From positions 1 to 28,946 of the IMG/VR virus record IMGVR_UViG_3300027659_000158: a stretch of DNA of 28,946 bases; one strand, 5' to 3'. Below, one piece after another: positions 5,908-27,324 of this stretch. Source of the stretch: a virus. The stretch's first letter is position 1. Every line of letters begins with the position of its first letter. The position numbers and the translations under genes were made by a program. The notes below the pieces were generated by a model that saw nothing but the letters and a program-made list of their open reading frames with translations, searched no databases and had not been told where the DNA came from.

Positions 5908-6117
5908 CTATCGGCCACAGCAACTTGACCCACGAAGGCTAAAACGAAGTTTGCCTCCACGGAAGACTTTTGCATCAGTCTTTACTGTTTCAATCTTAAT
6001 GGTTTTTTCAACCTTTTTTTCGATCTGTACTGCGGGTGCAGAACATTGTCCGTTGGAACAACTCTTGCGAATAGGCAGATCGATAACCATTCCAACCGCT
6101 AACACTAGACTAAACAT
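5908..6117 (-). CDS. Small secreted or membrane-anchored Cys-rich protein
   Basis: 69 residues from ATG at 6117, selected over upstream starts because AGGAGGAAGC ends 3 nt before it (strong ribosome site). Residues 1-12 (MFSLVLAVGMVI) are hydrophobic and look like a signal or anchor. They are followed by RKSCSNGQCSAPAV, a Lys/Val/Glu-rich stretch and a basic C-terminus ending SSCCGR. A hydrophobic start followed by a C-x-N-G-x-C-x-x-P motif is something I associate with small planctomycete secreted proteins. It follows the cysteine peptidase gene closely and precedes the terminator, so it belongs to the lysis cassette. A spanin-like, inhibitor or disulfide-linked envelope role is possible but unproven. 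Confidence 0.6.
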   Translation of the reverse strand: MFSLVLAVGMVIDLPIRKSCSNGQCSAPAVQIEKKVEKTIKIETVKTDAKVFRGGKLRFSLRGSSCCGR

Positions 6118-6155
6118 AATGCTTCCTCCTAAAGAAAAAAAAGTAACCAAACACA

Positions 6156-7157
6156 TTATATCGACCACTCGATAGTTCGTGCAGGGTATCCATCAAAATT
6201 AGAGAAAGAAAAAACTTCCTCTGCACAGATTCTATCCATATCCTTGGCTTTAATCCAGTACGAACCCTTAGGCTCATCAAAATTTCCCGGTGGTGTTCCG
6301 TGAGCATTACCCCATGAATTTTGGATCAAAAAGATTAATCCGAAATCTGGATGAGTAGTAAAGCCCAAGCATGATTGCTGATGCCCCCACGAATCGTTTC
6401 TTGTCGCTAACTGGATAGAAGGGGTTCCAGATGGCTTTATCTTGAGATCGCTAAAACCCCACCATCCAGAAGCAATGGTGACAGGGTATCCATGCGATAA
6501 AGCCTGTTTGACCTCGTCACTATTTTTAAGCTTTGATGTACTTTGAACTTTGAACTTATTAGCAGACTCAGAAAGATCAATTGGTGGCTTATCTCCGTTT
6601 GACCATTGAGTTTCGGCTTTAGCACCAAAAGTCCAAGATCCATCTTGTTCTTTAATGGGTTGCGGGTAACTAGGATCTAGTGGTGGACAACCATCTTCAT
6701 TAAGCGATTCTGCCATGCTTGAGCCAAAAGACCCTTCTCCTGTTCCATGCAATCCACCTCGAACCCTAGATTGACCATAATTGTAGAGAATGAATGGGAT
6801 TCTCCATTCCTCGAATGTTTGTCTTTGGGTAATGATTTCAACCGCTTGGAGCGTTGCCATCACGGCTAAAGCACCATGACCTACACATGATCCTGTTTTT
6901 TGATCCCAAGGAAAAAATTCATATCCGGCAGCTTGATTAACCACCTTATACAAAAGGGATTCTTTCAAATCTAATGAAGGCCCAGCGATTTGAAAAGGAA
7001 CAAGTTTTGCATTGAACTTGTCTTGAAGTTCTTTGGGTTGCAAAACAATTGGAAACCAGCCAAATTTATTTGGTGATATTGGTTCTACTTGTATTGGAAC
7101 CTCTTTTTTATCTAGATTTTCTTTTTTCCCAAATCTTGGTCTTTTTTCCATAGCCAT
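6156..7157 (-). CDS. Papain-like (family C1) cysteine peptidase
   Basis: 333 residues. ATG at 7157 overlaps the upstream TAA (TAATG) and has AAAGGAG upstream. The papain tetrad is visible: Gln86 in DQKTGSC, nucleophile Cys91 in CVGHG, His259 in SWGHQQS, and Asn280 in QNSWG, the classic C1 signature. Spacing between Cys and His (168) is usual for C1 peptidases. No signal peptide is evident; the first 30 residues are charged. There is no propeptide of usual length and no cell-wall-binding repeat. It sits among holin-like and secreted proteins, and no amidase, lysozyme or other peptidoglycan hydrolase is visible. It could therefore be the lysin or an envelope protein-degrading enzyme. Alternatively it could process virion proteins. 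The fold assignment is firm; the biological role is inferred. Confidence 0.85.
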   Translation of the reverse strand: MAMEKRPRFGKKENLDKKEVPIQVEPISPNKFGWFPIVLQPKELQDKFNAKLVPFQIAGPSLDLKESLLYKVVNQAAGYEFFPWDQKTGSCVGHGALAVMATLQAVEIITQRQTFEEWRIPFILYNYGQSRVRGGLHGTGEGSFGSSMAESLNEDGCPPLDPSYPQPIKEQDGSWTFGAKAETQWSNGDKPPIDLSESANKFKVQSTSKLKNSDEVKQALSHGYPVTIASGWWGFSDLKIKPSGTPSIQLATRNDSWGHQQSCLGFTTHPDFGLIFLIQNSWGNAHGTPPGNFDEPKGSYWIKAKDMDRICAEEVFSFSNFDGYPARTIEWSI

Positions 7158-7792
7158 TACTTCAACTCCTTTGATATTTGATTAAACTCGTTAGTAAGAA
7201 GATCCCTAAGTTTCTGATCCAACTTCAATGAGCCATCCTTGGGAAGTTTTTGATTCAGTCTTTTACCTATCACATCCCTGAGATTAGAAAGCTCGTTTTC
7301 CATGAATTGCTTATTGATTGTTGCCTTGGCAGCTTTAAAAATATCTGTAAGAAATTCGTAGTCGTTTTTCTGACATTCTTTTGCAAGCTCATCGTAGAAC
7401 ATAGACAACCATTTGACTTGATCTTTGTCTTCTTTTGCTGCTGCTGCTTTGATATCACCATCAGGATTTACTGGTGGAGTAGGTGGAGCGGGAGCGGGTT
7501 CATCACCGATCACAACAGATGTAAACGCTGGATCAGATGGGCCAGATTCGTTTCCAACATAAGCAAACAATCTGTACACACCTTGGATTTGCGAAGTGAC
7601 TACCAAGGTTTTAGAATCTTTAAGCAAATCAACAGGGAAAATATTTAGTCCTTTGTCGATTGAAACCCATTTTACAAACTTGGATTCTGTCTTTGCTGGA
7701 ACGCTTATAAACGCTCCCGGTTGCCCAGAAACCTTTGCAGGGAGTTCTATAGTTGGAATTTGAAGAAACACTAAAAACAAGATGTTTATCAT
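7157..7792 (-). CDS. Secreted Ig-like domain protein of planctomycete type
   Basis: 211 residues. ATG at 7792 overlaps the stop of the HNH frame, with AAGGAATC as ribosome site. Residues 1-13 (MINILFLVFLQIP) form a short hydrophobic leader. Residues 17-95 form an Ig/PKD-like beta domain (SGQPGAFISVPAKTES, KWVSIDKGLNIFPVDLL, GVYRLFAYVGNESGPS). A Pro-rich linker follows (DEPAPAPPTPPVNPDGD), then a charged helical region to the end. This layout, with 'VsikaeTdg..VkW...d.GLnvfP.dLL...YRLlAyt...g..S', is one I know from Gemmata and relatives and is a host clue. In the lysis cassette it may bind the envelope. The function is not established. Confidence 0.7.
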   Translation of the reverse strand: MINILFLVFLQIPTIELPAKVSGQPGAFISVPAKTESKFVKWVSIDKGLNIFPVDLLKDSKTLVVTSQIQGVYRLFAYVGNESGPSDPAFTSVVIGDEPAPAPPTPPVNPDGDIKAAAAKEDKDQVKWLSMFYDELAKECQKNDYEFLTDIFKAAKATINKQFMENELSNLRDVIGKRLNQKLPKDGSLKLDQKLRDLLTNEFNQISKELK

Positions 7793-8079
7793 GGTCGATT
7801 CCTTATTTTTTCAGCAATCACTTTACAGTCTAATAAACAGGTGGGGTTATAAGACCGCCAGTTTTTTAAATGCCCCAGAAGCAAATGGCAAACTCTACAC
7901 AATGTTGCCATGTTTTTTCTGTCATATTCCCCTTCTGGATATAGTGAATACGGTATCAGATGATGCACTTGTAGTTTTTGGGGATCTTCTTCAAGGCAAG
8001 CTATACAGCAGGGGTTATCTGCAATATATTCATTCCTCTCTTTGCCCCAATTCGATCCCCGATTATAAAAAAACGGAGA
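7789..8079 (-). pseudogene. HNH endonuclease domain without its own start codon (frameshift-dependent or broken)
   Basis: This frame is open for 96 residues after a TGA at 8082-8080 but contains no ATG, GTG or TTG before the conserved core. Numbered from 8079: C25-x2-C28 and C61-x2-C64 are zinc knuckles, His39-His40 (LQVHHLIPY) is the HNH histidine, Asn56 lies in DRKNMATLC, and His65/His70 lie in CHLLLGHL, followed by the family tail KNWRSYNP and IRNRP. This matches a well-known phage HNH family, complete from the zinc knuckle to the C-terminus. It lies in the +1 frame relative to the 8063-8383 gene and overlaps its end at a T7 run, so a +1 slip would yield a 197-residue fusion. Otherwise it starts at an ATT (plausible ribosome site AGAGAGG), or the run was mis-sequenced. 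Confidence 0.8.
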
Positions 8080-8383
8080 TCAATAACTTTAGTGCAGTCT
8101 TCAAAACGATTGCCCAAGGAATTATTCCAATCGTAACTGGGTTGCCGTGGAAATCACCTTGAGGAATCGCTTGCTCAAGAATTGCTGCAAAATCTTCAAG
8201 AGACACTTCTGGTTCTTCAAAAATTAGTTTATCGTCAGGAACAACTTGATCGGCAGCATAGCCAACAATGTTCCAAAGTGCATTACAAAATTCTTTGTTG
8301 CCTACATCTGGACTCTTTCCACGGAGTCTGTTCACAACGAGCATCATGGCATCTGTAGGCATACTTTTTGGAAAATCAATCAT
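8063..8383 (-). CDS. Hypothetical protein with hydrophobic C-terminus, between holin-like gene and HNH
   Basis: 106 residues. ATG at 8383 overlaps the TGA of the upstream gene (ATGA), and an AAGGAAG ribosome site lies within that gene. The N-terminal part (MIDFPKSMPTDAMMLVVNRL) is helical. An acidic middle follows (DDKLIFEEPEVSLEDFAAIL). The C-terminus (IIPWAIVLKTALKLLISVFL) is hydrophobic, ends naturally and may lie in or on the membrane. I recall similar short 'P.d....v..klrg' proteins with a 'PW..llk..l.ll' ending in other phages of this kind, but with no assigned function. It may be a lysis accessory protein. A +1 slip at its final codons would replace Leu106 with the HNH domain. Confidence 0.65.
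   Translation of the reverse strand: MIDFPKSMPTDAMMLVVNRLRGKSPDVGNKEFCNALWNIVGYAADQVVPDDKLIFEEPEVSLEDFAAILEQAIPQGDFHGNPVTIGIIPWAIVLKTALKLLISVFL
8067..8073 (-). promoter_or_regulatory. T7 run, candidate +1 frameshift or slippage site
   Basis: On the minus strand the upstream gene ends GTT TTT TTA TAA. The seven T let tRNA-Phe move forward one base and continue as TAT AAT CGG in the HNH frame, just before the TAA stop. A T6 transcript from polymerase slippage would give the same fusion. A one-base sequencing error would also explain it. Confidence 0.4.
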
Positions 8384-8649
8384 TGCTTCACTTCCTTTTT
8401 TAAAGTTCTGGTGTAATTTAACACCTCTGTTAAAATCCTCAAACTTTCAGCTTGAGCTTTGGCTACCTCGCCAATCGAGTTTTCTAATCGATCTATGAAC
8501 AGCATATGTCTTTGATGTAAGGGTAATAAGATATTACTTCCCAGCCATCCAAAACCTTTATAAGTTGTCCAAAGCATAAAAATCAGAAAACTTAAAGAAA
8601 CCCCGAAACGCTCAAATATGTCGATGATATTGATTTCTGCGAACATCAT
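8380..8649 (-). CDS. Holin-like one-pass membrane protein
   Basis: 89 residues from ATG at 8649. Upstream in-frame starts (TTG, ATG ATG) overlap or crowd the ribosome site; GGAG at 8662-8659 is 9 nt from 8649. Residues 1-15 are amphipathic. Residues 16-37 (FGVSLSFLIFMLWTTYKGFG) form one membrane span. Residues 45-89 are charged and helical (FIDRLENSIGEVAKAQAES), ending in a basic tail (TLKKEVKQ). A single span plus a coiled-coil-like C-terminus resembles BhlA-type and similar class III-like holins. It heads the lysis cassette next to the peptidase, which supports the call. Topology and pore formation are not shown by sequence alone. Confidence 0.65.
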   Translation of the reverse strand: MMFAEINIIDIFERFGVSLSFLIFMLWTTYKGFGWLGSNILLPLHQRHMLFIDRLENSIGEVAKAQAESLRILTEVLNYTRTLKKEVKQ

Positions 8650-8673
8650 TTTCATCATCTCCAATAAATAAGC

Positions 8674-8717: not shown

Positions 8718-9365
8718 TTAAACAGAAATATAAATTGATGTTACGATCAAATAAGTCATACCGGGATACCCTCCACCAATGCTGAAAAGTATAGCCAAAG
8801 AGTCACCAGAAGAAATTCCTATCGTTCCAGTAAAACTCATTCCATTGGCATACAAAACACCTTCTATGTAAGTTCCATTGATCGTAACATAACCCATTGC
8901 ACCAGAACTCATCATGTCATAAAGACTAAAATTATAATAAAGAGTTCCGCTAACCGAAGCTTGGTAATTTATTGTCAGCGAATCATTAACATAACCTGTT
9001 AATGGAGACATCATTGAGCCATCACCAGTAACTGTATGACTACTGCTGGTCTCTGAAATTTTGACTAAATTTGGTGTAGGAGTAGGAGTAGGTGTAGGAG
9101 TAGGAGTAGGGCTAGGTGTTGGTGTTGGAGTCGGAGTAGGAGTAGGTGTAGGTGTAGGTGTAGGAGTAGGGCTAGGAGTAGGAGTAGGAGTCGGTGTAGG
9201 AGTCGGTGTGGGTGTGGGGGTTGGTGTGGGAGTGGGTGTAGGAGTGGGGGTAGGAGTAGGAGTAGGGCTAGGTGTTGGTGTTGGAGTCGGAGTAGGACTT
9301 GGACTAGGGGTAGGTGCAACATTTTTAATATTTACCACTCTGGAAGTAAAATTAGTTACTGTCAT
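8718..9365 (-). CDS. Tail spike/fibre with Pro-Thr repeat stalk and beta tip domain
   Basis: 215 residues, starting with ATG at 9365, not the upstream 9428 ATG that lies inside the neighbouring gene. GGAG is 10 nt upstream. Residues 1-17 ([17 protein letters not shown]) are a short anchor. Residues 18-98 are an almost pure Pro-Thr/Pro-Ser repeat, probably an extended rigid stalk. Residues 99-215 are a beta-rich tip ([29 protein letters not shown], ending SIYISV). The tip aligns by eye with the C-terminal domain of the 1393-2301 protein, so the two share a tip module. It lies directly before the lysis cassette as the last fibre gene. A host-surface or decoration adhesin is likely. Confidence 0.75.
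9068..9318 (-). repeat. Six-base Pro-Thr coding repeat with internal 156-bp-offset duplication
   Basis: About 40 imperfect 6-bp units (CCNACN type on the minus strand) encode the Pro-Thr stalk. A 47-bp block at 9095-9141 recurs exactly at 9251-9297. The offset of 156 bp is 26 units, which keeps frame and phase, so it looks like expansion by unequal recombination or slippage. Both third positions vary between units, which suggests the tract is old enough to have drifted or is kept imperfect to limit slippage. Confidence 0.85.
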
Positions 9366-9366
9366 G

Positions 9367-9696
9367 TTATGAAATCTCCGCACCAAATAAAGAAAAGCCA
9401 ACCGAACCAGCAGTAGATTGAACAACAATTACATCTGTTGCAGATAATGTAATTCCTATTGTGAGAAAAATTGAATCTGAAGCTGCAATAGGGGAATCAT
9501 AAGCAATATACATTTCGTCAGAAATTGATACACCTAACTTTTTAACAGCTATTCTAAAGGTTCTTGCTGATGCGGTTTGATTGCATATTGCTAATGTCGA
9601 AACAATAGTGCTTGTTGCTGCTGGAACTGTATACAAGTTGGTTAGCGTTGCTGCTGAAGGTATAACCTGACCTAGAACCTTATGGACTTGTGGCAT
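9367..9696 (-). CDS. Small virion protein of a widespread phage tail-associated family
   Basis: 109 residues. ATG at 9696 overlaps the preceding TAA (TAATG), with GGGGGT upstream. The sequence ([71 protein letters not shown]) closely follows a family I know from many marine and freshwater phages: 'kvlgQ..p.attlttlYtvPa.tstvvSt..vcNr', ending 'vsfnafG.Eis'. It is generally annotated as hypothetical or as a structural protein beside tail fibres. A single jelly-roll-like beta domain is expected. Its precise position in the virion is unknown. It is co-translated with the fibre gene before it. Confidence 0.75.
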
Positions 9697-22610: not shown

Positions 22611-23828
22611 CTAAGCGGGAAGACCTTGAACCACATAGCGTGGATCAGTAACACCAGCGGAACCCCACCAAGAAGCTTTAATCGCAACAGCGATATCTTG
22701 GTTGAATTCTGCCCAATTATTGGCTGGTGCTTGAACAACTTCCATAGGCTTGGCTTCTCGCCATACAAAAGCCTTTTTGAAGTTGCCAAGGTAAACATAC
22801 TTGTCTGCGGTGGAAGCAGCAATACCGCTGGTTACCAACAGGTTTCTCGCATGGGAAGATGTGAGAAGACCATAGTTGTTATCCAATGGGTTAGGACTTT
22901 CCAACTGCTCAACATCACCAGAGGTGGCATAAGGCCCATTCTTGGTGGTGGTCTGAGGATTCAAGATCCTAGAAGCAGTATATTTCTGGAAAGGCATAAC
23001 AAGCATCTGCATACCGGGGCCAAAGATATCGATTGGCTTGCCAGTATTAGGGTCTTTCATCTGGTAAAACAACTGTTCTAGCGTATTGATGCTAGCGAAG
23101 TTGCTCAACGCATAAGAAGTTACCTTGTTGACATAGCCAAAGGACATACCAGCTTGGGCAGTTGCTGAATAAGTATTCAAGGTTACTTCTGCACCAGTTG
23201 CAGTTCCGTAAACATGACTACCTGTGAGGCCGAGAACTGTGTTAAGAATTCTCTCTTCACGCACTAGACCGCAATAAGTACCCACAGATTCAGCAGATGC
23301 TAAAGCTTGGGAAGTCTTATCCGAATAAATCATTTCAGCGGTAATCGCACAAATCCTACCAACCTTTTCAATGGCTGGAAGACGAATATAATTACCAGAG
23401 AACTGAGTCTGTGGATAAGGCATACCGGGCTGAACAACCTCTGGCGAAGGACTGATGTCGCTCAACCAAGGGATGATCTCGCTAGCAAGGTTTTGACCAG
23501 CAGGGATGGTCGATACAAGTTGGTCACCAATGAATGATGCCAATTTGTATTTTTCTTGAACAGTAGTGATAAGAATCTGACCAGTAATGGCAGCAAAGTT
23601 AGAAGCATCGACTGCTTCGGTTGCTTCCATGAAGGTTCGCTCTGGGCCATTGTAACGAGTAAGCTGTTCAGCCCAATCGTCACCCATGATGCCTTCTGCA
23701 AGACCTCTAAGGGAGATGCGATTTACCGCAACATCACCTTTAGCGATAGATTCCGAAAAGAACTGCTTGGTTTTAGCCAAACCATTTTGTTGGCCAAATT
23801 CCTTCAGCTTTTTACCTAAACTCTTCAT
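22611..23828 (-). CDS. Major capsid protein, HK97 fold
   Basis: 405 residues. ATG at 23828, AGGAGAATAGC upstream. An N-terminal charged helical segment (residues 1-30) lacks the long HK97 delta domain. The core has FIGDQLVSTIPAGQNLASEI, IRLPAIEKVGRICAITAEMI, YSDKTSQALASAESVGTYCG, and near the end FVWREAKPMEVVQAP and FNQDIAVAIKASWWGSAGVT followed by PRYVVQG. The last motif ('f..Di....ka..f.g..v.dPrav...') is the standard C-terminus of HK97-type capsids. A separate decoration protein and a protease with nested scaffold lie upstream. Base composition is higher in G+C than in the fibre region. Confidence 0.88.
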   Translation of the reverse strand: MKSLGKKLKEFGQQNGLAKTKQFFSESIAKGDVAVNRISLRGLAEGIMGDDWAEQLTRYNGPERTFMEATEAVDASNFAAITGQILITTVQEKYKLASFIGDQLVSTIPAGQNLASEIIPWLSDISPSPEVVQPGMPYPQTQFSGNYIRLPAIEKVGRICAITAEMIYSDKTSQALASAESVGTYCGLVREERILNTVLGLTGSHVYGTATGAEVTLNTYSATAQAGMSFGYVNKVTSYALSNFASINTLEQLFYQMKDPNTGKPIDIFGPGMQMLVMPFQKYTASRILNPQTTTKNGPYATSGDVEQLESPNPLDNNYGLLTSSHARNLLVTSGIAASTADKYVYLGNFKKAFVWREAKPMEVVQAPANNWAEFNQDIAVAIKASWWGSAGVTDPRYVVQGLPA

Positions 23829-24345: not shown

Positions 24346-24966
24346 CTATTTGCCAAGGACATTTTCTCTAAACTGTTGATAATTCGACTCGCCTTGGATT
24401 GCAGTCGAACTAACCGGCTTAACACTTGCCCGAACAAGAGCAACCTTTTTCCTGTCTTCAATCGCTTCTGCCCACATCGTTTCACCGATAGCGGAAAGTT
24501 GCTTTACAAACACAGGGGTTGGCTCCAATTTACTTTCTCTAAGCAAAGAAAGTATTTTTTCTTCATTAAGCTTTTCAGCTTTCCACTTGCGAAGTTCAAT
24601 AAGTTCGTTAATTGACTCCTTCTTTTCGTCATCCATTTCTTCTTCGCCAGATTCTTCATCACCAAGGTTTGCCTGTGCGGGTGTACCTTGAGTTTTGTTG
24701 GTTCCGGTTACATCTGTGGTTTCGGCAGCCATATCGCCAACACCAAGACCAGTGGCAGCAGCAATAAGATCAAGAATCATCTTGCCTTTAGCCGAACCTT
24801 CGCCCGGCCCAACGCAAATTTCCATAATTTTCTTGAGCATATCAGAAGCCGGTTCTTCCGAAGTCGGTTCAGCAGTTGGTTCTTGTGCGGGTGCAGCATC
24901 TGGAACCTCTTCCTTATACATTTCCTTGACAGGATTTTCTTCGGTCATCATTTTGTCATTTTTCAT
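24346..24966 (-). CDS. Scaffold protein from an internal start within the protease gene
   Basis: The ATG at 24966 (Met157 of the protease frame) is preceded by a near-perfect AAGGAGA (24978-24972) with 5-nt spacing, inside an otherwise continuous gene. The product would be 206 residues, acidic and helical: KNDKMMTEENPVKEMYKEEV, Pro/Glu/Ala-rich segment, then NLGDEESGEEEMDDEKKESI and a coiled-coil-like EKILSLLRESKLEPT. Acidic, Glu-rich and helical is the normal character of phage scaffolds, and a nested in-frame start is the known lambda C/Nu3 arrangement. Both forms share the C-terminus. Strong ribosome site and domain boundary support the call. Confidence 0.75.
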   Translation of the reverse strand: MKNDKMMTEENPVKEMYKEEVPDAAPAQEPTAEPTSEEPASDMLKKIMEICVGPGEGSAKGKMILDLIAAATGLGVGDMAAETTDVTGTNKTQGTPAQANLGDEESGEEEMDDEKKESINELIELRKWKAEKLNEEKILSLLRESKLEPTPVFVKQLSAIGETMWAEAIEDRKKVALVRASVKPVSSTAIQGESNYQQFRENVLGK

Positions 24967-25434
24967 TGCAGTCTCCTTGGATTCAAAAATGGTGGTGGTA
25001 GTTGCAGGGTTTGCAACTAGATCCACCGATCTAACTCTGTCGATTCTTACTACTCTTTCTGTACCATCTTGGTCTGGAATTGATTTGCCACTAACGAGAT
25101 GGCTAAAGCCTACATCACCGAGGCCATTATTTTCAGCGAACCACAAAAACGAATCAATCCCATCAGCATGGGGGTTGTATCTGAAGTCAGCGTATAAACC
25201 TTCTGAGGTAAAGCGGACATTTTGAAGCCATCCTAGCCGATCAGAAAACAAAGGTGCTTCGGTTTTGTGGTCTTTATTTACTGGAGCGTTTTCGTAAAGC
25301 GGAACTGCATCACGAATCGCTTTAGGATCGTAGATTCTGCCATTCATAGAGTTAAACCCAAGCACTTTTACACCGTAAACAATGCACTTGTTTCGGTCTA
25401 CTGCACCAGATTTATTTTCTAAAACGGCATTCAT
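24346..25434 (-). CDS. Prohead protease with C-terminal scaffold
   Basis: 362 residues. Residues 1-155 are a prohead protease of the herpes-assemblin-like group: VKVLGFNSMNGRIYDPKAI, His56 in NKDHKTEAP, Ser111 in VGFSHLVSG, and the 'RVRSVDLVANPATTTTIF' end, which is characteristic of these maturation proteases. His56 and Ser111 are the likely catalytic pair. Residues 157-362 are scaffold. No ribosome site precedes the ATG at 25434; instead a promoter-like sequence ends 6 nt before it, so the transcript may be leaderless. The adjacent portal, decoration and capsid genes complete the head module. The protease domain would remove the scaffold during capsid maturation. Confidence 0.85.
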   Translation of the reverse strand: MNAVLENKSGAVDRNKCIVYGVKVLGFNSMNGRIYDPKAIRDAVPLYENAPVNKDHKTEAPLFSDRLGWLQNVRFTSEGLYADFRYNPHADGIDSFLWFAENNGLGDVGFSHLVSGKSIPDQDGTERVVRIDRVRSVDLVANPATTTTIFESKETAMKNDKMMTEENPVKEMYKEEVPDAAPAQEPTAEPTSEEPASDMLKKIMEICVGPGEGSAKGKMILDLIAAATGLGVGDMAAETTDVTGTNKTQGTPAQANLGDEESGEEEMDDEKKESINELIELRKWKAEKLNEEKILSLLRESKLEPTPVFVKQLSAIGETMWAEAIEDRKKVALVRASVKPVSSTAIQGESNYQQFRENVLGK

Positions 25435-25473: not shown

Positions 25474-27324
25474 TTATTCCGTAACTGATGATGTATTTGT
25501 TGGTGTGCTGAGTTTTTCTGGTGAAGAACTTGACATGGTTTGTACAGGTTCTGGAATCTTGACTACTACATCACGGAACATGAGATCAATCATCTCTGGT
25601 GTAATTGCAGGGAAGGATGCTCTTGCAACTGCTTTGCCACTTTCCATTGGAATTTCACCAATAGTACATCGATGAATGATGTCTACAAGTGATGCAATCT
25701 GTGTTCCATTAAGTGCGGAATCTTGAACCTGATCGCCACCACCAATACCTTGCGTAGCACCACCAGTATCTACTCTTGATGATGGGTTCATTGGGTCGGT
25801 ATCAGTTGCACTAGCCTTTTCGTCTACAATAGGTTTGATGAAGTTTGATGCTTCCGTGTCGTTATCAAGTCCGAGTTCAGCACGAATCGTCTGAATGGAC
25901 TTCACCCCCATCGAGTGATACACATTGTTCATTTCTGCTTCCTTCTGATGTTCTCTTGATTGTAGAGAATACGCTTCAGAAGTAATCTTGATGTTCTTGA
26001 GGATTTCCTTGGGAATAATTCCGTGTTCGGACGCAAGGTGAATCTGTGACCAAGCAAGTGACTTGTTTGGTTCAAATCGGCATTCAGCTAAAGATCGCCC
26101 AACGATTCCTTGCCATCGCTCAAAGGTTCGCCTTGCTGGAGCTTCTGCAATGAGTGCTGAACTGTAGTTATTATTCGATGCGTCACCGGACATGAGTGTT
26201 TCGCTGATTCCAAAGCGTGTTGCAAGGGATCGGAGGTTTGCTTGGAGAACTTGGATAAGTCCAGAAGCGTCAACATTAGCACCGGGGAATTCGTAGTCGA
26301 TGTTTGCTGGAGCGGTAATGATTGATCCATAGCCGAATCTCTCCAATCCAATAGTTTCGGTAGCACCCATATTGTTGCTTCCACCGAGCGTAGCATCGAT
26401 CTGAGAGTCTACAAGTGATGACATCGAGTCAGGAGCGACATTGTTGATCTTTCGCACCATTGCGATCTTTGCTCTCGCTTTCGCCATCGTGACTGTAGAT
26501 GCAAGGATATCCTCACAATTGGTCAAGTTTTGAAACACAGGGTAGAAGGTAGTCAATCCCCTCTTCGCATTAGCGTTTGTGCCAATTTTGATGTGTATGA
26601 TGTCTTCAGCAGGGATAAATGTTGGTTCTCTAGATACTGTAGGCTTCAAAATCACCTGATAACCAAGAACCGAGTTAATATCGTCTTCTTCGCACACGAT
26701 ACCAAATGAGTCTTTTGGCGAGCCAATATCGGTAGCATACCCTCTGACCAATTCTGGCTCAATAAAGCGAATTACAAGCATCCCATTGGCTTGCGGGAAC
26801 TTTCTCAGGAACACTTCTCCGTCAACATGAAGACGATATACGATCTCGTTCTCCACATCGACCATATTGTTGTATTCTCTGAAGATGTCGAGTGATGCCT
26901 GACATCGCTTTAGAAGATCTTCCGGTACAGGGTTCTTCAGATCAATTGATGCTACCCGCCACTTGAATCCCGCAGAACCAACAACGAATGACTGAAAACA
27001 CTGTACTAGTCCATGAGCAAACTCATTGGTAGCAAATACGAATCTAGCACGATCCCTGATGCTTTTTAACTGCCACCAAGACAGATAGATCGGGAGTTGC
27101 TCACCTGACAGGTAATTGTCTCGAACAGCTAACTGTGCCGGATTGACCCAACCACCCATCCCAGCATTAGGAAACTGGAATGCACCATATTCTGATGGGT
27201 CGTTCCAGAATGGCCCCCATCCTGTCTGATAACTTCCAGTATCATACGAAATAGACTCCTTGATCGTTTTTTTAGATCTTGAAGTCCTAGGAACTGATTT
27301 TGGTGACGGTTTTTTCTTTGCCAT
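25474..27324 (-). CDS. Portal protein
   Basis: 616 residues. ATG at 27324 with AGGT upstream. A basic N-terminus (MAKKKPSPKSVPRTSRSKKT) is followed by a portal core: LKSIRDRARFVFATNEFAHG, NEIVYRLHVDGEVFLRKFPQ, EPELVRGYATDIGSPKDSFG, PAEDIIHIKIGTNANAKRGL. The clip/wing helices have LQANLRSLATRFGISETLMS and NYSSALIAEAPARRTFERWQ. The C-terminal part has QIASLVDIIHRCTIGEIPME and PAITPEMIDLMFRD, a frequent C-terminal segment in this portal group. It forms the DNA channel of the head and is placed before protease and capsid as usual. The adjacent terminase genes are absent here. Confidence 0.88.
   Translation of the reverse strand: MAKKKPSPKSVPRTSRSKKTIKESISYDTGSYQTGWGPFWNDPSEYGAFQFPNAGMGGWVNPAQLAVRDNYLSGEQLPIYLSWWQLKSIRDRARFVFATNEFAHGLVQCFQSFVVGSAGFKWRVASIDLKNPVPEDLLKRCQASLDIFREYNNMVDVENEIVYRLHVDGEVFLRKFPQANGMLVIRFIEPELVRGYATDIGSPKDSFGIVCEEDDINSVLGYQVILKPTVSREPTFIPAEDIIHIKIGTNANAKRGLTTFYPVFQNLTNCEDILASTVTMAKARAKIAMVRKINNVAPDSMSSLVDSQIDATLGGSNNMGATETIGLERFGYGSIITAPANIDYEFPGANVDASGLIQVLQANLRSLATRFGISETLMSGDASNNNYSSALIAEAPARRTFERWQGIVGRSLAECRFEPNKSLAWSQIHLASEHGIIPKEILKNIKITSEAYSLQSREHQKEAEMNNVYHSMGVKSIQTIRAELGLDNDTEASNFIKPIVDEKASATDTDPMNPSSRVDTGGATQGIGGGDQVQDSALNGTQIASLVDIIHRCTIGEIPMESGKAVARASFPAITPEMIDLMFRDVVVKIPEPVQTMSSSSPEKLSTPTNTSSVTE

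Follow-up and report, generated by a model that had tools for sequence, protein, structure and literature searches.

Papain-like enzymes are not foreign to phage lysis, as endolysins of the CHAP and NlpC/P60 types belong to the papain-like superfamily (accessible text of PMC10318531), and the accessible text of PMC3314691 describes a domain of the papain superfamily, N5 of mycobacteriophage lysin A, that serves lysis as one C39-like part of modular enzymes. Similarly, frameshifting is known from phage tail genes, with -1, -2 or +1 shifts in different phages (accessible text of PMC5009743). The DNA analysed here is IMG/VR record IMGVR_UViG_3300027659_000158, a virus contig of 28,946 bases, which as a whole is called the window; all of its genes discussed here lie on the minus strand. 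The virus is tailed and has relatives among planctomycete prophages, and its gene cassette at positions 5908-8649 probably serves lysis, with a stand-alone papain-like (C1A) peptidase as the most likely lytic enzyme. Unlike N5, this peptidase is of the C1A type and is not joined to any recognised binding domain. A second finding within the same coordinates is an HNH nuclease frame that appears to be reached by frameshifting.

In a 44-row alignment of relatives, residues Gln86, Cys91, His259 and Asn280 of the peptidase encoded at 6156-7157 are invariant, and in 14 wider rows Cys91, His259 and Asn280 remain so, with Gln86 at 90% or more. The Gln-Cys spacing of papain is one residue longer. When AlphaFold2 was given 20 close relatives the pLDDT was 34; distant relatives were then added, and the final model, built with the 44-row alignment, had a pTM of 0.78 and a mean pLDDT of 70, with residues 1-32 at low confidence. 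A Foldseek search with this model returned xylellain first (E 5.9e-8, prob 1.00), followed by cathepsins and plant papains, and VIA-align gave Z scores of up to 14.8 against C1A structures (14.6-14.8 for xylellain, 3ois, and cathepsin B1, 4i05), at 11-18% identity to the listed solved-structure matches. Among the viral models of BFVD, the top match was a Peptidase_C1 protein of an uncultured phage. The product of 6156-7157, assigned to the C1 peptidases in a preliminary description of this DNA, is thus predicted at the level of fold and active site only to be a papain-fold (C1A) cysteine peptidase, and its activity is likewise a prediction.

Sequence searches placed the peptidase apart from known families. 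Used as a single protein, it had no match in Pfam, PHROGs, NCBIfam, PDB sequences or GenBank phages. Pfam PF00112 left it unmatched and gave one relative (L088) 16.9 bits, under the cut-off of 20.7, and a profile compared with PDB sequences gave a marginal match to xylellain (E 0.014). A tblastn search with five of the peptidases found no match in GenBank phages, nor did the window DNA. No known peptidoglycan-hydrolase domain and no peptidoglycan-binding domain were recognised in the peptidase; CHAP and NlpC/P60 appeared neither by Pfam nor among the listed solved-structure matches. With the C1A papains and cathepsins it therefore shares the fold and the Gln-Cys-His-Asn residues, whereas it differs from them in its low identity, in lying below or outside PF00112, in being viral and in its place in a lysis-type cassette. 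Its sequence family is new, its fold is known and its role here is plausibly new, although the novelty is smaller because papain-family domains have already been reported in mycobacteriophage lysins (accessible text of PMC3314691). Close relatives were found at 29 loci in viral contigs, a recurrence beyond chance, and with profile queries the number of viral stretches that encode a relative rose above 500; these reach down to 26-32% identity, in contigs of up to 158 kb that we take to be marine from their gene content.

The order of genes on the minus strand is portal (25474-27324), head protease (24346-25434), capsid (22611-23828, labelled by its match to planctomycete prophage capsid genes), tail genes and fibres, and the cassette, whose features are the following.

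8380-8649 (TTG start at 8664), minus strand: holin-like protein with one transmembrane segment and a charged helical C-terminus, identified from sequence, no family match.
8063-8383, minus strand: 106-amino-acid protein, hydrophobic at its C-terminus and proposed as the N-terminal part of a fusion with the frameshifted HNH, identified from sequence.
8067-8073, minus strand: run of seven T (T7), proposed slip site to the -2/+1 frame, reading GTT TTT TTA TAA in the 106-amino-acid frame, identified by comparison of run states.
7789-8073, minus strand: HNH nuclease frame (Pfam PF01844), open from the T-run that ends the 106-amino-acid gene, with no start codon before its zinc knuckle.
7157-7792, minus strand: 211-amino-acid secreted protein with a short N-terminal hydrophobic segment, an Ig/PKD-like part, a Pro-rich linker and a helical part, identified from sequence.
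6156-7157, minus strand: predicted C1A papain-like cysteine peptidase of 333 amino acids with Gln86, Cys91, His259 and Asn280 and no signal peptide (alignment, AlphaFold2, Foldseek, VIA-align).
5908-6117, minus strand: small Cys-containing secreted protein, with AGGAGG upstream of its ATG and a longer frame from GTG 6168, identified from sequence.
5882-5855, minus strand: terminator-like hairpin with a T tail at the end of the cassette, from a hairpin scan.

The preliminary description had listed five consecutive protein genes closed by a terminator. All five are present on the minus strand and the hairpin exists; however, the HNH frame, which that list omitted together with its start-less T-run layout, sits between the 106- and 211-amino-acid genes, so that the five are not strictly consecutive, and the hairpin is weak by itself, as 12 kb contained 9 terminator-like sites against 8.2 in shuffled sequences. 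The small Cys protein also follows the peptidase in L196 and in G002/G005. Just upstream of the cassette, 8718-9428 encodes a fibre-like protein whose sequence contains an extended Thr-Pro repeat (PTPTPSPTP); it was also seen in L001, L002, L009 and L026.

The peptidase recurs in comparable surroundings. Prophage L259 has the order terminase, portal, capsid, holin-PKD-like protein, peptidase with an N-terminal membrane segment, one-transmembrane protein and tail genes, and prophage L255 the order membrane protein, one-transmembrane protein, peptidase, thioredoxin-like protein, terminase, portal, head protease and capsid, labels beyond the named families being assigned by eye. The peptidase gene lies between capsid and tail genes in L259 and just before the terminase-portal-capsid genes in L255 and L254, and in prophages it adjoins membrane, PKD or lipoprotein genes. 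In the virus L100 the peptidase has a twin-arginine motif and is accompanied by a holin-like gene and an Ig-like secreted protein. By eye only, the window holin-like protein resembles in layout the product of a gene in planctomycete prophage L258 (10549-10881). Of the small holin-like neighbours of marine relatives, six were tested; four gave weak matches to PHROG holins (E 4e-4 to 6e-3) and two matched nothing. Homology also links the one-transmembrane helical partner of marine viruses to that of planctomycete metagenome-assembled genomes (MAGs; hhalign prob 99.8, E 3.6e-29). An N-terminal hydrophobic segment or an RR motif is present in the peptidases of 11 of 19 planctomycete loci, a count that joins a 19-residue scan with a 15-residue scan. 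The thioredoxin-like partner in L255 matches PF13899 (E 1.3e-7). Thioredoxin-like secreted proteins near the peptidase were noted at L255:10661-11185, L254:8715-9275, L256:9610-10182 and L100:6826-7452, Pfam having been applied to that of L255 alone.

A search of 84,980 species genomes brought up relatives of the peptidase at 13 loci, distributed over 11 genomes. Six of these loci, in five genomes, are in planctomycete MAGs, and the others belong to a Lokiarchaeota bin (two loci), SAR202, Flavobacteriales, Flavipsychrobacter and two Mucilaginibacter strains. Because viral contigs can be misbinned, a whole-genome test was run, in which the peptidase profile was found in 13 of 392 Planctomycetota genomes (search centre counted) against 1 of 395 Bacteroidota genomes (the centre itself); several of the matches are on contigs of 5-8 Mb. 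The window capsid matches those of L254 (E 5e-28), L255 (2.6e-30) and L258 (6.5e-21), the window portal matches those of L254 (E 5e-32) and L255 (6e-30), and the head protease genes of L254, L255 and L258 match the window virus. The window head protease was found in 15 of 294 Planctomycetota and in 0 of 296 Bacteroidota genomes. When the open reading frames (ORFs) of the prophage regions were pooled, they gave PHROG matches to terminase, portal and head protease families, and Pfam recognises a terminase in both L259 and L255 and a portal in L259. By sequence comparison, planctomycete prophages share capsid, portal, head protease and peptidase with the tailed virus of the window and are its relatives, in line with the planctomycete type suspected in the preliminary description.

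Conventional lysins were searched for mainly in the relatives G002 (48.8 kb), G004 (46.5 kb) and G005 (48.5 kb), which have ~127 bases common to both ends and were taken as complete circles. Sixty ORFs of G002 matched 28 Pfam families; none of the 25 listed is a lysin, and the other three rank below the last of these (E 0.0047). None of the 25 listed of 74 PHROG families is for lysis, and 33 further ORFs from G001 and G003-G006 gave nine Pfam families, none a lysin. Of the window ORFs, ten were scanned against Pfam and 20 against PHROGs. An amidase, glycosidase or D,D- or L,D-peptidase, whose absence from the window had been noted in the preliminary description, was also lacking from the near-complete ORF sets of the circular relatives, where no known lysin family was found. 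In the pieces of these three genomes, 148 of 319 ORFs of at least 75 amino acids have no similarity to a scanned protein, nearly all of them antisense or overlapping by eye. The large terminase was matched by phrog_2 in five of six records (G002:525-1925, G001:4490-5893, G003, G005 and G006), and at E 0.01 Pfam gave no terminase family in two homologues (L030:4448-6028 and L037:8670-10313). The ORF set scanned for G002 lacked this gene, probably because of an overlap with the convergent primase gene.

Both the lysis-cassette and the planctomycete readings gain support from these data, the former because holin-like genes and genes for secreted proteins or lipoproteins accompany the peptidase in lineages unrelated to one another as well as in prophages. 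We infer that the peptidase is exported in the window lineage, that it is lytic, what it cuts and what its partners do. Because the window peptidase has no signal, it would be let out by the holin-like membrane protein in this lineage, whereas many related prophages encode a peptidase with an N-terminal membrane segment or twin-arginine motif that would serve its export. Once past the inner membrane, the enzyme would attack peptide bonds in the envelope, whether in envelope proteins or in peptidoglycan stem peptides, and a spanin-like contribution at the outer layers may come from the neighbouring Ig/PKD-like protein or lipoprotein.

Several observations weigh against this interpretation. The cassette is positioned among tail-fibre genes, as would suit a virion role, and its holin-like protein has no family match. 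The peptidases of 8 of the 19 planctomycete loci lack a signal, as does that of the window. The window 211-amino-acid protein matches the L259 holin-PKD protein weakly (phmmer E 0.0023), the L100/L204 partners also weakly (hhalign prob 18, E 0.0013) and the marine partner not at all. On two Mucilaginibacter chromosomes (L201 and L202), peptidase relatives lie beside a deacetylase-like ORF with no phage genes seen nearby. Finally, a lysin of an unrecognised family could be among the unannotated ORFs.

The alternative that survives best overlaps with the proposed lytic role and divides it over the substrate: the peptidase would cut peptidoglycan stem peptides as an ordinary endopeptidase, and a known endolysin activity would here have a new sequence family. 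Such a role is a serious possibility, if not the one that we favour, since a papain-family domain is present in mycobacteriophage LysA (N5) (accessible text of PMC3314691), and 'N acetylmuramidase (Fragment)' and 'Peptidoglycan binding-like' are among the names of the structural neighbours of the peptidase in BFVD. Matches to mycobacteriophage Lysin A were weak (prob 0.35-0.63). However, the closest solved structures are protein-degrading C1A peptidases and not NlpC/P60 or CHAP enzymes, and the peptidase lacks a recognised peptidoglycan-binding domain. Planctomycetes do have peptidoglycan (accessible text of PMC4432640), yet in Planctopirus limnophila most peptidoglycan-synthesis genes are not essential, and a YTV-domain protein has been suggested to affect wall rigidity through its cysteines (accessible text of PMC10632474).

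It is unlikely that the peptidase is instead a virion or maturation enzyme, kept by the fibre genes for fibre or tail processing or for local digestion of the envelope at entry. Its position between fibre and tail genes in the window, its lack of a signal peptide there and the large fibre-like gene that follows it, by eye, in L090, L097 and L112 would agree with such a function. The export signals of the planctomycete relatives misfit assembly in the cytoplasm and lower this reading, which the preliminary description had named as one that would overturn its own; moreover, the conserved neighbours are membrane or secreted proteins and not one virion protein, and the head protease is a separate gene. 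Slightly less probable still is that the cassette modifies the surface of the living host (receptor shaving, superinfection exclusion, anti-defence or nutrient release), for which the exported peptidase with a thioredoxin-like protein in some prophages, the protease-like ORFs beside the peptidase in L208 and L123 and, by eye, the glycosyltransferase-like genes around marine members could speak, whereas the peptidase has holin-like genes beside it and, in prophages, belongs to the structural operon instead of standing alone as a lysogenic gene, and without it no lysin candidate is left. These two ORFs, both recognised by eye, are subtilase-like in a Pirellulaceae MAG (L208:8307-9260) and trypsin-like and secreted in a virus (L123:3928-4665).

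The HNH frame at 7789-8073 matches Pfam PF01844 with an E value of 1.7e-7, and the motif CxxC...HH...CxxCH is present in 25 of 25 distinct HNH frames. To compare the run that precedes it, 131 matches to the 106-amino-acid gene were reduced to 31 distinct 3' ends, one of which is a cut piece. As regards a homing endonuclease, what was seen is the presence of HNH in some relatives and its absence from others. In 22 distinct sequences, all with T7, the HNH is in the +1 (= -2) frame, and in four others (including L028) with a run of six T (T6) it is in the -1 frame. Four distinct sequences without HNH carry TTTTCTTA in place of the T-run, a C breaking it; they may be one clade, so that the TTC change may be a single event. 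Examples noted were L020, L021, L023 and L028 for the T6 group and L001, L009, L014 and L017 for the broken run.

In all 26 HNH-bearing distinct sequences the frame opens at or just before the run, where the conserved protein starts with FF. In 22 of them, the window included, the stretch from the run to the zinc knuckle lacks any ATG, GTG or TTG, and in ten none occurs from the opening of the frame to the HH motif; such a codon occurs in the remaining 16, in 12 of these right beside the HH motif and past the knuckle. Initiation at an ordinary start was accordingly rejected for the 22, whereas a GTG before the knuckle makes it possible in L012, L020, L021 and L023. From the run to the HH motif, the ratio of non-synonymous to synonymous substitution rates (dN/dS) of the HNH frame is 0.05-0.44 (23 of 36 pairs, those with unsaturated dS), and the other two frames mostly give higher values over the same stretch.

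All four T6 sequences have an in-frame slippery heptamer U UUU UUA, a 6-nucleotide spacer and a 7-bp hairpin, with -10.0 to -15.8 kcal/mol for the 45-base stretch and z of -2.0 to -3.7 against mononucleotide shuffles; in L028 a G-C pair of the hairpin is replaced by A-T, both changes being synonymous. The heptamer resembles the HIV-type U UUU UUA slippery site. The 21 T7 sequences tested have no downstream hairpin (z -0.4 to 2.1), and the window site is the single T7 in its 23,472 coding bases. Reasoning from the sequence, the T7 run begins where a two-base slip of both tRNAs needs it and the T6 run where a one-base slip does. The layout points to programmed frameshifting or slippage, which at the T7 sites might be a -2/+1 ribosomal shift or transcriptional slippage. 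Members of this group would differ in using a -1 or a -2/+1 shift, much as tail genes differ between phages in using -1, -2 or +1 (accessible text of PMC5009743). Mu is an example of a -2 shift in a tail gene. In contrast to these cases, the downstream product here would be an HNH nuclease fused to the product of a lysis-cassette gene. No case of a frameshifted HNH or homing endonuclease fusion was found in the open-access literature consulted, including the accessible text of PMC10885494.

Lysis of planctomycetes by their phages appears to be almost undescribed in the literature searched. A general statement, that planctomycete phages lyse by proteolysis through a stand-alone exported papain-type peptidase, joined in some prophages by a thioredoxin-like partner, which dissolves a protein-rich, cysteine-rich envelope in bacteria of which one species can dispense with most of the peptidoglycan-synthesis genes tested, and that the window group adds an HNH nuclease that arises solely through frameshifting, fused to a lysis-cassette protein, is tentative and in this full form somewhat unlikely. 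The frameshifted HNH, if true, would be a natural experiment, with -1 sites made of T6 and a hairpin, -2/+1 sites made of T7, and a broken run without the nuclease. A lytic enzyme that cuts protein would make the load-bearing layer of the envelope testable with a phage tool, which bears on the old question of what holds the planctomycete envelope together.

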